Source: Methylobacterium nodulans ORS 2060 | Lineage (GTDB): Bacteria > Pseudomonadota > Alphaproteobacteria > Rhizobiales > Beijerinckiaceae | DNA: 64,000 nt | Direction of reading: 5' to 3' | NCBI RefSeq assembly: GCF_000022085.1 | Contig: NC_011894.1 | Location: 1,576,501-1,640,500, forward strand | Shown here: piece after piece, positions 61,612-64,000 of the stretch | Position numbering within the stretch: position 1 is the first letter of the stretch | Layout: the number at the start of each line of letters is the position of its first letter | The notes under the pieces: generated by a model | Seen by the model: only the letters and a program-made list of their open reading frames with translations | The model's database searches: none | What the model was told of the DNA's origin: nothing | Translations under genes and position numbers: made by a program

Positions 61612-61641
61612 CAACAAACAAACAGGCAAGTATGAATGTTG
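61612..61641. promoter_or_regulatory. possible TetR operator
   Basis: An AT-rich stretch just upstream of the TetR start, with CAACA at 61612-61616 and TGTTG at 61637-61641 as a spaced dyad. Position suits autoregulation; the motif is weak. Confidence 0.25.
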
Positions 61642-61793
61642 TGGAAATCTACGCCAACCTGCCCGCGCCGCGGGCGGCAGCGGGAGGACGCTGCGGGCGG
61701 CAGCCGCCGGATGCTACGCTGCGCTGGGGACGTTCAGCGGGCGCCGTGGCGCGGATTGCACCGTCATTGGTCAGTCATGCACATTATTCGTTC

Positions 61794-61819
61794 GGAACGA
61801 TCGGCGTGCGACTGCCGTT
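61794..61819 (+). promoter_or_regulatory. EcfG-type general-stress promoter, exact match
   Basis: GGAAC at 61794-61798, 17 bases, CGTT at 61816-61819. The -10 box ends 31 bases before the ATG at 61851. This is the consensus for the EcfG sigma factor of alphaproteobacteria. Confidence 0.8.
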
Positions 61820-61850
61820 GAGGGCCCATTCCCGCAATGGAGGTGAAGCA

Positions 61851-62099
61851 ATGATGAAGATCGCGCTGATCACCGTGGCCATGGCGGCCCTTGGTCCGGC
61901 TCTGGTGAACTCTGCGGAAGCTTATGAATGGGGTGGCGGCAGCTGCGTCGGCTATGGCTGCGTGCGCGCCCTGCACGACGAGGATTATCGGCCGGTTCGG
62001 CACTACCGGACCTACGAGGAGCGGCCGGCGGTTCGGGTCTATGAGCGCCGGACCCATCGCGGCTGGCGCCACCACGACTGGGACGATGACGACGAGTGA
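61851..62099 (+). CDS. small exported protein, charged C-terminus
   Basis: 82 residues from the ATG at 61851 (a second ATG follows immediately), preceded by GGAGGTGAAG. Signal peptide about 1-25 (ending NSAEAYE). The mature part has two Cys (SCVGYGC), many Arg, His and Tyr residues, and ends in an acidic run (DWDDDDE). Function is unknown. The exact EcfG-type promoter upstream suggests induction in the general stress response. Confidence 0.75.
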   Translation: MMKIALITVAMAALGPALVNSAEAYEWGGGSCVGYGCVRALHDEDYRPVRHYRTYEERPAVRVYERRTHRGWRHHDWDDDDE

Positions 62100-62198: not shown

Positions 62199-62645
62199 TC
62201 AGTAGCCGAAGCGGACGTGGCGGTAGCCGTGATGGCGCCAGCCGTAATGACGGCCATGGTGCCAACCGTAGTGGCGCCAGTGATGGTGCCGCCAGCCATA
62301 GTGGCGATGCCTCCAGCCGTAATGGTGCCAGTAGGGGCGGTGGTGCCAGCCATAATGTCGCCAATGGTGCCGCCGGTAGCCGTAACGCACCGGATAATAG
62401 GCGACGGGGCGATAGCCGTAGTGCACGGTGCGGTAGCCGAAGGGCCGGCCATAGCCGTGCCGGTACCAGCCGAGATGGCGGCCGCGGCCGTGCCATCCAT
62501 GTCCGCCATGCCACCCGTGTCCGCCGTGCCAGCCCGTCCAGGCCGTGGGCGCGGTCGCCCGCCCGGTCGCCGCCGGCTCGGCCCGCAGGGCGGAGCCGAA
62601 GCCGCAGACGAGCATCAGTACGAGGAGTAATCGTCCAAGACGCAT
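62199..62645 (-). CDS. His/Tyr/Trp-rich exported repeat protein
   Basis: 148 residues with a perfect AAGGAGG box before the ATG at 62643-62645. Signal peptide about 1-22. Then three WHGGHG-type repeats (about 38-53) and a region of Tyr/Arg (about 58-90) leading into five HYGW repeats (93-138). Nearly half the mature residues are His, Trp, Tyr, Gly or Arg. No known domain; His density suggests metal binding or a structural envelope role. It has an exact EcfG-type promoter 29 bases upstream. Confidence 0.8.
   Translation of the reverse strand: MRLGRLLLVLMLVCGFGSALRAEPAATGRATAPTAWTGWHGGHGWHGGHGWHGRGRHLGWYRHGYGRPFGYRTVHYGYRPVAYYPVRYGYRRHHWRHYGWHHRPYWHHYGWRHRHYGWRHHHWRHYGWHHGRHYGWRHHGYRHVRFGY
62232..62369 (-). 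repeat. tandem repeats encoding HYGW units
   Basis: Five imperfect units with the core CACTACGGCTGG-like codons, each encoding HYGW plus Arg/His, spaced 8-13 residues apart. Unit number could vary between strains by slippage or recombination. Confidence 0.7.
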
Positions 62646-62674: not shown

Positions 62675-62699
62675 AACGAAGTGCGGCGCGGTTGGTTCC
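62675..62699 (-). promoter_or_regulatory. EcfG-type general-stress promoter, exact match
   Basis: On the minus strand GGAAC (62699-62695), 16 bases, CGTT (62678-62675). The -10 box ends 29 bases before the start at 62645. Confidence 0.8.
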
Positions 62700-62791: not shown

Positions 62792-63049
62792 TCAGTCGCA
62801 GCTCTCCTTGTGCACGGTCTTGGACTCGCCGAGGTCGTTCTCCTTGTGCACGGTCTTGGAGCCGCAGCCCACGCCGTCCGAGGAGTGGGTCACGGTCTTC
62901 TTCTCGACGGTGCCGGTGGTGCTGCGGTCGACCACCGTGCCGGCCGGGCCATCGCGATGGATGACGGTGGTGTCCTCGGCCCGGGACGCAGTCGACACCC
63001 CCGCGACGGTGGCGAGGGCGGCGAGGGCGATCAGCGTATGACGCATCAT
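62792..63049 (-). CDS. small exported protein with KTVHKE repeats
   Basis: 85 residues from the ATG at 63047-63049 (a second ATG follows), preceded by AAGGAG. Signal peptide about 1-24 (ending ASRA). The mature part is polar with repeats KKTVTHSS, SKTVHKEN and SKTVHKES and two Cys residues. Function unknown. An exact EcfG-type promoter lies 29 bases upstream. Confidence 0.75.
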   Translation of the reverse strand: MMRHTLIALAALATVAGVSTASRAEDTTVIHRDGPAGTVVDRSTTGTVEKKTVTHSSDGVGCGSKTVHKENDLGESKTVHKESCD

Positions 63050-63078: not shown

Positions 63079-63103
63079 AACGCCAACCCCCATGACCAGT
63101 TCC
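63079..63103 (-). promoter_or_regulatory. EcfG-type general-stress promoter, exact match
   Basis: On the minus strand GGAAC (63103-63099), 16 bases, CGTT (63082-63079). The -10 box ends 29 bases before the start at 63049. Confidence 0.8.
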
Positions 63104-63336: not shown

Positions 63337-64000
63337 TTGGCCGACCTTGACCCGGAGCAGAGCCACTTGCGATCCGATATCCGCGGCCCGATCCCCGATG
63401 ACGGGCCCCCCGGCGCGGTCCAGGCCGTCGCCGTCCACATGGCGGTGAACGCTGCCCTGGACGGGCGTCCGGACCTGCCGCCATTCCTGCGCGACCATCT
63501 GGGCACGCATCTGCGGGCCTGTTACGCCGCGCTGCTGGCCGAGCCGCAGCCGGCGCTGCTCATCGAACTCGTCGGCCGCCTTGAGGCCGCGCTGGCGGTC
63601 GTCCGCCCGGCCTTCTCCTTCCGCGACGAACTCCTGGCGACCCTGCCGTCGCTGCGGGCTTTCGCCCTGTCGCTGACCACCACCCTCTCCCAGGCCGACG
63701 ATCTGGTACAGGAGACGCTGCTGCGGGCCTGGCAGAACCAGCACCGCTTCGAGGCCGGCACGAACCTCAAGGCCTGGCTGTTCACGATCCTGCGCAATCA
63801 GTTCTACACGGTTGCGCGCAAGCGCCGCCGGGAGGTGGAGGATGTCGACGACGCGGCGGCGGGCCGGATGGTCGCCCTGCCGGACCAGGAGGACGGGATC
63901 GCGCTGCGCGAGGTCTGGGACCAGGTGGCGCGCCTGCCGCCGCTCCAGCGGGAGGCCCTGCTTCTCGTCGCGGTGCAGGGGCTGACCTACGAGGCCGCCG
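63337..64000 (+). CDS. NepR-like anti-sigma segment fused to EcfG-type sigma factor, cut by window end
   Basis: The frame opens after a stop at 63313-63315 and runs off the window (221 residues visible). Start is uncertain: TTG 63337, TTG 63367 or ATG 63439; codon use looks coding from 63337 and no start has a good ribosome-binding site. Residues about 50-84, LRDHLGTHLRACYAALLAEP followed by QPALLIELVGRLEAA, match the conserved NepR pattern (HLG-x2-LR-x2-Y...EP-x-P...LL-x2-LE). From about residue 95, FRDELLATLPSLRAFALSL, ADDLVQETLLRAWQN, GTNLKAWLFTILRNQFY and KRRREVEDVDD are sigma region 2 of EcfG; LPPLQREALLLVAVQGLTYE begins region 4. No ATG, GTG or TTG separates the two parts. NepR normally is a separate protein that holds EcfG until PhyR releases it. 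Confidence 0.85.
   Translation, partial: MADLDPEQSHLRSDIRGPIPDDGPPGAVQAVAVHMAVNAALDGRPDLPPFLRDHLGTHLRACYAALLAEPQPALLIELVGRLEAALAVVRPAFSFRDELLATLPSLRAFALSLTTTLSQADDLVQETLLRAWQNQHRFEAGTNLKAWLFTILRNQFYTVARKRRREVEDVDDAAAGRMVALPDQEDGIALREVWDQVARLPPLQREALLLVAVQGLTYEAA

Follow-up and report, generated by a model that had tools for sequence, protein, structure and literature searches.

A NepR-like extension in frame with an EcfG sigma factor in Methylobacterium nodulans: a known family trait, its likely origin and its possible role

The fused gene

The window, that is the whole 64-kb stretch of DNA that was analysed (G000:C7:1576501-1640500, in an 8.84-Mb genome of 8 contigs), ends inside an open reading frame of the forward strand (63337..64000) in which a NepR-like anti-sigma segment precedes an EcfG sigma factor. 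The first-pass annotation, made from the letters of the window, had described a NepR-like core and an EcfG sigma factor in a single frame; this is borne out by the order of the Pfam matches, by the absence of a stop codon between them and by the profile and shuffle tests described below. When the frame is followed past the end of the window, as the annotation had suggested, it runs on to a stop codon at L009:2608, so that the whole gene spans L009:1838-2608 and codes for 256 amino acids counted from the TTG at 63337.

Two other start codons of the same strand have to be considered, and all three candidates (63337, 63367 and 63439) precede the NepR-like segment. The TTG at 63367..63369, which gives a protein of 246 amino acids, has a GGAG ahead of it, is conserved in the orthologue of Methylobacterium sp. 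WSM2598 (L043), and its equivalent is the start of the database protein P0003; judging from these features, it is the likeliest choice and probably the start of the gene. The ATG at 63439..63441 is, by sequence comparison, the first codon of the database copy P0001 (222 amino acids, 100% identical), and it is not conserved in L043. The WSM2598 orthologue (L043:3030-3780) shifts frame inside sigma region 4, which is either real decay or an assembly error.

The NepR-like segment (residues 53-85, 63493..63591, forward strand) matches the Pfam family PF18557 with 16.9 bits, below the cut-off, and a profile of free NepR proteins with 19.8 bits. It is followed on the same strand by a linker (63592..63639), by sigma region 2 (residues 102-165, 63640..63831; PF04542, 58.4 bits) and by sigma region 4 (residues 191-243, from 63907 to the window end at 64000 and beyond it; PF08281, 58.7 bits), so that the protein has both sigma regions of an EcfG (ECF15) factor. 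The two parts had been described as separated by about 10 residues with no internal start: the NepR and sigma-2 matches are in fact 16 residues apart, and the linker indeed contains no in-frame ATG, GTG or TTG. Reading of the frame reveals neither a stop nor a start codon between the NepR-like and sigma parts, and the NepR-like part is thus not a separate small protein, unlike NepR proper.

The surroundings of the gene

The surroundings of the gene were searched for EcfG-type promoters, defined as exact matches to GGAAC-N16-18-CGTT. One match (63079..63103, reverse strand, GGAAC-N16-CGTT) lies before a divergent small ORF (62792-63049, reverse strand), another (62675..62699, reverse strand) before the ORF 62199-62645 of the same strand, and a third (61794..61819, forward strand) before a small ORF that would start at the ATG 61851 of the forward strand, where the listed ORF (61632-62099) begins further upstream. 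A fourth (L009:2980-3005, reverse strand) is found just downstream of the window gene. All three matches of the 64-kb window lie between 61794 and 63103, a short way before the gene, whereas 0.58 are expected in the whole window (4 of 100 shuffled sequences reach three); the 8-kb locus contains four, against 0.10 expected, a number which is reached in none of 200 shuffles. The pattern also occurs between the nepR and phyR genes of this genome (L175), which served as positive control, and EcfG-type matches flank the WSM2598 orthologue on both sides.

Each of the four matches precedes a small gene, and the four products, read by eye, look exported; three of these proteins were scanned, and none of the three has a Pfam match. 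Since there are promoter matches on both sides, the window gene lies amid probable general-stress targets, the flanking small genes being the putative targets. No exact EcfG-type promoter is found upstream of the window gene itself, which agrees with what the study of Francez-Charlot et al. 2016 (PMC4814048) says of M. extorquens.

Homology of the extension to NepR

The first-pass annotation had proposed to compare the protein with NepR and sigma-70 profiles. The sigma regions come out clearly, but the score of the NepR-like segment (E 0.0049) does not reach the curated Pfam cut-off of 25.7 bits. The other extended paralogues of the genome score 26.5 (L013), 21.8 (L012), 16.5 (L010), 14.9 (L016) and 11.9 bits (L011), and the extension of own_L014 gives no Pfam NepR match at E values up to 1. 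In a six-frame Pfam search, with its neighbours in frame included, L012 scores 26.5 bits, so that by Pfam alone the number of extensions over the cut-off is one or, with this value, two out of seven. A scan of NCBIfam gave no NepR model among the best 25 of the 79-86 families matched by each protein.

A profile made of 21 extensions only was searched against 177,635 distinct PDB sequences, and its top three matches are all NepR chains: 5uxx_B (E 7e-6), 4qic_B and 2lfw_B, with E values from 7e-6 to 4e-5. A fourth NepR chain, 3t0y_B, has an E value of 0.24 and ranks under an unrelated chain. The score of the window segment against the free-NepR profile, built from 17 proteins, compares with a maximum of 10.8 bits in 5000 shuffles; against a 12-row extension profile, built without the window protein, three near rows and five paralogues of the same genome, the segment scores 59.1 bits and the shuffles at most 10.9. 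With the free-NepR profile, the N-termini of fused proteins (here those with an extension score of at least 40, five intermediate genes being in neither set) obtain 11-41 bits, and the 76 N-terminal entries of unfused proteins that score at all, in which overlapping loci are counted repeatedly, obtain at most 2.7.

The core positions of NepR are conserved: in the 34 distinct extensions that score at least 40 bits (weaker ones being left out), they are occupied by G in 34, L in 34, Y in 34, P in 28, L in 33 and L in 31 sequences. In 20 free NepR proteins the glycine is present in 19 and the five other residues in all 20; this set takes 16 of its members from the genus Methylobacterium, and it lacks two of the 18 NepR loci taken from the genus, L181 and L191, which were missed by the motif. 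We consider that the homology of the segment to NepR is secure in spite of the weak match of the single protein, because one paralogue is over the cut-off, the extension profile retrieves NepR chains from the PDB and the shuffled sequences score far lower.

Two trivial explanations were considered. Chance resemblance is ruled out by the shuffle tests and by the NepR chains that the extension profile retrieves from the PDB. A sequencing frameshift between the two parts, named in the first-pass annotation as what would undo its reading, is ruled out as well: the same architecture is found in six further paralogues, which makes seven fused genes, and across the genus, with matches in 111 of 111 genomes.

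Paralogues and distribution

The genome contains eight EcfG-type genes (sigma profile score of at least 223 bits, loci from whole-genome searches), seven of which carry the extension. A profile covering the NepR-like part and sigma region 2 matches every genome of the genus, and in at least 105 of the 111 (99, plus five, plus G019) the match runs through both parts without a stop. The other six (G003, G036, G043, G069, G075 and G100) are represented by their best E values (2.0e-32 to 5.7e-32); we read them as fused since, in the inspected genomes, matches to sigma region 2 only reach 8e-15 at best and matches broken by a stop 8e-24. The fusion is a multi-copy, genus-wide trait, not a lone odd gene.

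Outside the genus, a survey of the family (397 genomes) shows that genus g32 also often has a full-length match, with E values about 1e-30, and named fused loci beyond Methylobacterium and Methylorubrum are those of Microvirga (L052, L053 and L057). In a sample of the class, 2 of 385 genomes pass 1e-16, both of the same genus as the window. The megaplasmid of M. extorquens AM1 has a paralogue with the extension (26.3 bits). Strongly degenerate extensions are also observed, in L134 (9.8 bits), L162 (7.0 bits) and L052:3799-4614, referred to as L052_3798 (5.9 bits). Among the best 120 of 7997 relatives of the window protein, the fused proteins P0016, P0034, P0042, P0073 and P0096 are named 'NepR family anti-sigma factor' by NCBI.

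A 2009 PNAS paper is probably the earlier reference (number 4) for the NepR-like extension in the later study which we discuss now. The first-pass annotation had guessed that such fusions might already have been noted, and rightly so: PMC4814048 describes that the EcfG proteins of Methylobacteriaceae bear an N-terminal extension of about 55 residues, whose resemblance to NepR suggests an ancient fusion. The fusion itself is therefore already known, and the window gene is an ordinary member of a published family trait. A search of the CC-licensed PMC literature for Microvirga and NepR returned nothing, and neither did a literature search for NepR together with SigG, Bartonella and PhyR.

Free NepR, PhyR and an unfused pair in the same genome

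A phyR gene and a separate nepR/ecfG pair, for which the first-pass annotation had proposed to look, are both present in the genome. The phyR gene (267 amino acids) is divergent from a free nepR (L175), and EcfG-type promoter matches lie between the two. The eighth EcfG-type gene, own_L015 (L015:4500-5450, G000:C7 near 5695000), is unfused and directly preceded by a nepR frame of 106 amino acids; the stop codon of nepR overlaps the start codon of ecfG as ATGA, so that the two genes are in different frames. The nearest neighbour of own_L015 in the tree described below, L147 from another genome of the genus, also has an upstream nepR. A third free NepR-like gene, with a frame of 98 amino acids, is found at G000:C7:7250718-7250813 (L176), and neither a phyR nor an ecfG frame was picked up within 3 kb around it.

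Origin of the fusion

In a survey of the order, 44 of 397 genomes pass a threshold of 1e-16, which hides the true frequency of the layout in which nepR, a stop codon and ecfG follow each other in frame; nine of these genomes belong to the genus and 35 do not. Among the latter, the match contains a stop in 34 cases (exactly one in 33, two in G646), and only that of G731 contains none. In three of the 34 (L171, L172 and L173), and in G145 (L169), which belongs to the family of the window organism, nepR, the stop and ecfG were seen to lie in one frame; in these four loci, nepR and ecfG are thus a single stop codon away from being fused. It is likely, from these layouts, that the fusion arose by loss of the stop codon in such an in-frame operon and that the fused gene was then duplicated.

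The distribution of the extension was mapped on a tree built from 106 sigma domains, where a gene counts as fused if its extension scores at least 7 bits (L052_3798, with 5.9, is therefore unfused). To build it, 26 locus ids were dropped by hand, mostly similar rows from Hyphomicrobium, the Rhodobacter group and acetic acid bacteria, and distant or partial ECF factors; identical sigma domains and rows with fewer than 150 sigma positions were also left out, the short rows including L043, with its frameshift, and the partial L141. The fused label needs three changes on this tree. All but one of the 36 fused rows, together with one degenerate Microvirga row, lie on one side of a branch whose support is 82 (106 rows, unstarred) and 94.7 when three long rows are removed (103 rows, unstarred), and the sigma domain of the window protein falls inside this clade in both cases.

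The AU test, run after removal of the three long rows, rejects holding all 36 fused rows together (p 0.029), and the row that sits elsewhere is that of G182 (L123), whose genus is a different one of the same family. G145 (L121/L169), which is of the genus of G182, has an in-frame TAG between nepR and ecfG. Because of this separate placement in the tree and of the stop retained in the congener, G182 (L123/L168) looks like an independent fusion of NepR and EcfG, which we consider probable, bearing in mind that the p value is modest and that long branches are present. As for G731 (L167), from another family of the order, its genome is 85% complete and the contig with the fused gene is 6.5 kb long; this gene may result from transfer, contamination or a further fusion.

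Sequence constraint and structure prediction

The pN/pS ratio (mean and uncorrected) of seven EcfG1-like orthologues is 0.50 in the extension, 0.10 in sigma region 2 and 0.08 in sigma region 4, and in the clade of the window gene (six rows, paralogues included) the values are 0.53, 0.36 and 0.41, respectively; synonymous changes are frequent, and these ratios are rough. The value for the free NepR of the genus is 0.51 (six of seven genomes). The extension matches free NepR in this respect, which suggests that its evolution resembles that of a genuine NepR and not that of nonfunctional sequence. The mean identity is 0.55 among free NepR proteins, versus 0.67 among EcfG1-like extensions.

The extensions and the free NepR proteins differ at a few residues. 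At position 11, an arginine in 15 of 20 free NepRs contrasts with a histidine in 30 of 34 extensions; just ahead of the second proline, all 20 free NepRs have a hydrophobic residue (V, I, L or A), where 15 of the 34 extensions have Q; the residue after this proline is D or E in 18 of 20 free NepRs, and mixed in the extensions. We give no weight to these differences, because the NepR proteins of Bartonella and Sphingomonas in the PDB also deviate at some of these residues; the free set itself is drawn mostly (16 of 20) from Methylobacterium. Between the extension and the sigma profile there is a short linker of 2-8 residues, and of five in 21 of the 34 genes. A GTG, TTG or ATG occurs near it in 17 of the 34 distinct fused genes, the ATG in only one of them; an internal restart producing a sigma-only isoform is not favoured, the linker of the window gene being devoid of start codons.

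The solved structure nearest to the window protein is 5uxx_A, the sigma factor of B. quintana determined together with NepR (E 2.4e-42, the next one being at 3.6e-16), with which the sigma part shares 48% identity in a structural alignment. The AlphaFold model of the whole protein, based on an alignment of 63 rows taken from the best 120 of 7997 protein matches, has a pLDDT of 84.1 and a pTM of 0.42; that of a fragment consisting of the NepR-like part and sigma region 2 (18 rows) has values of 80.5 and 0.55. In both models the extension is a hairpin of two helices whose position is of low confidence. The first-pass annotation had expected that a prediction of the protein alone would show whether the NepR helices pack on the sigma regions in cis, but no confident docking was obtained. 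In the whole model, sigma regions 2 and 4 are arranged unlike those of NepR-bound EcfG (rmsd 22 A to 5uxx). Fold searches, run with the whole model, align almost solely the sigma part, and VIA-align, by its own account, barely tests the other parts.

The window protein may transcribe from GGAAC/CGTT promoters such as those counted at the neighbouring genes, as a putative accessory general-stress sigma factor of minor role. A minor role is probable because it groups apart from own_L016, which we call EcfG1-like solely on account of its near-invariant sigma part (its relatives in six other genomes of the genus hardly vary in this part).

What the extension may do

The experimental data considered here come from PMC4814048, and they concern EcfG1 and EcfG5 of M. 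extorquens, which are other paralogues than the window protein. In vitro, NepR is bound only by EcfG1 from which the extension has been removed; in two-hybrid assays, a signal with NepR is seen only for truncated EcfG1 and, weakly, for truncated EcfG5; in pull-down experiments in vivo, however, NepR interacts with both isoforms of EcfG1. The same study reports that acute induction depends on EcfG1, reportedly under the control of free NepR, and that after stress the EcfG3 protein accumulates while EcfG2 seems to decrease (PMC4814048).

The explanation that we put forward, and to which we give about an even chance, is that the EcfG paralogues descend from one ancient fusion and that the tethered NepR-like relic sits on the NepR site of its own sigma factor. 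An in-frame operon of nepR, stop and ecfG would have lost its stop codon, and duplication would have multiplied the fused gene into several EcfG (ECF15) paralogues. In each of them the tethered hairpin would cover the surface by which its own sigma factor binds NepR, keep free NepR off and lower or tune the activity of the sigma factor, until RNA polymerase or PhyR displaces the hairpin. Occupation in cis fits with the observation that the extension prevents EcfG1 from binding free NepR (PMC4814048), an observation that concerns free NepR and does not bear on contact between PhyR and the extension. This occlusion cannot be absolute, since both EcfG1 isoforms bind NepR in the pull-down experiments of the same study (PMC4814048). 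It may also be that the linker is too short for this geometry.

A different reading, in line with the first-pass annotation, which had suggested that the protein could be self-inhibited until PhyR binds or that NepR may have become a regulated handle, keeps the same pieces but turns them into a partner switch within a single chain: the extension would be a working NepR that holds the attached sigma factor inactive, and phosphorylated PhyR would turn the sigma factor on by binding this tethered NepR. The preserved core positions and NepR-like constraint would be expected of such a switch, PhyR is encoded in the genome, and the extension does block free NepR in the published assays (PMC4814048). 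However, the extensions have lost residues that are nearly fixed in free NepR on either side of the second proline (a hydrophobic one ahead of it and an acidic one after it), binding of PhyR to an extension is not found in the parts of the papers available to us, and acute induction in M. extorquens goes through EcfG1, reportedly controlled by free NepR (PMC4814048); we hold such a switch to be unlikely. The broader version, in which single-chain switches operate throughout the genus, NepR being peeled off in cis by phosphorylated PhyR or another sigma-like domain, with an unfused pair that persists and a stop codon lost at least twice, seems to us quite doubtful.

It could also be that the hairpin is a relic with another, for instance structural, job (stability, control of proteolysis, contact with RNA polymerase or dimerisation) and that NepR-like regulation is gone. 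The histidine of most extensions, at the position where most free NepRs have an arginine, would then be a new conserved feature, the degenerate extensions of L134, L162 and L052_3798 would be unsurprising, and the changes of EcfG3 and EcfG2 levels after stress would fit (PMC4814048). Yet the conserved positions are exactly those of free NepR, and EcfG1 with its extension loses the binding of free NepR (PMC4814048), so that we see this job as possible, on the improbable side. As to an artefact of either kind dismissed above, the only argument for it is the Pfam score of the window protein under the curated cut-off, and the seven fused paralogues, the 111 genomes, the shuffle tests and the PDB chains leave it practically no room.

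For specialists, the presence of the fusion is no surprise and the interest lies in the function of the extension, that is in the question, raised by PMC4814048, of the role that a NepR relic plays once it shares a chain with the sigma factor. What we add is the likely origin, one probable independent fusion, the presence in this genome of a nepR-ecfG pair that is not fused, and the free-NepR-like constraint. The coexistence of fused and unfused paralogues, the operons that are one stop codon from fusion and the probable second fusion provide material to address this question.

Comparison with known systems

The closest system is that of the NepR-extended EcfG proteins of Methylobacterium (PMC4814048), which have, like the window gene, an extension of about 55 residues in frame with EcfG, and occur as several paralogues per genome with a free nepR elsewhere, as is the case here. 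The study names M. nodulans in its section on other species; an unfused ecfG with its own upstream nepR, such as that of the present genome, is not found in the part of PMC4814048 available to us. The canonical nepR-ecfG operon, whose products form the NepR-EcfG complex of Bartonella quintana (PDB 5UXX), consists of the same modules in the same order, but 5UXX contains two separate proteins and the window gene codes for a single polypeptide. Regarding the PhyR-NepR complexes, the NepR chains of 2LFW and 4QIC (2lfw_B and 4qic_B) are matched by the extension profile with E values below 1e-4, whereas that of 3T0Y (3t0y_B) only has an E value of 0.24, and the likeness is at the level of sequence. 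Last, ECF36, ECF41 and IutY (PMC8999054, PMC8103513) share the general principle of an ECF sigma factor that carries an inhibitor or regulator in the same chain; the fused examples found in the available parts of these two papers have it as a C-terminal domain or as a transmembrane anti-sigma part, whereas the window protein has a small N-terminal NepR-like segment and no transmembrane part.
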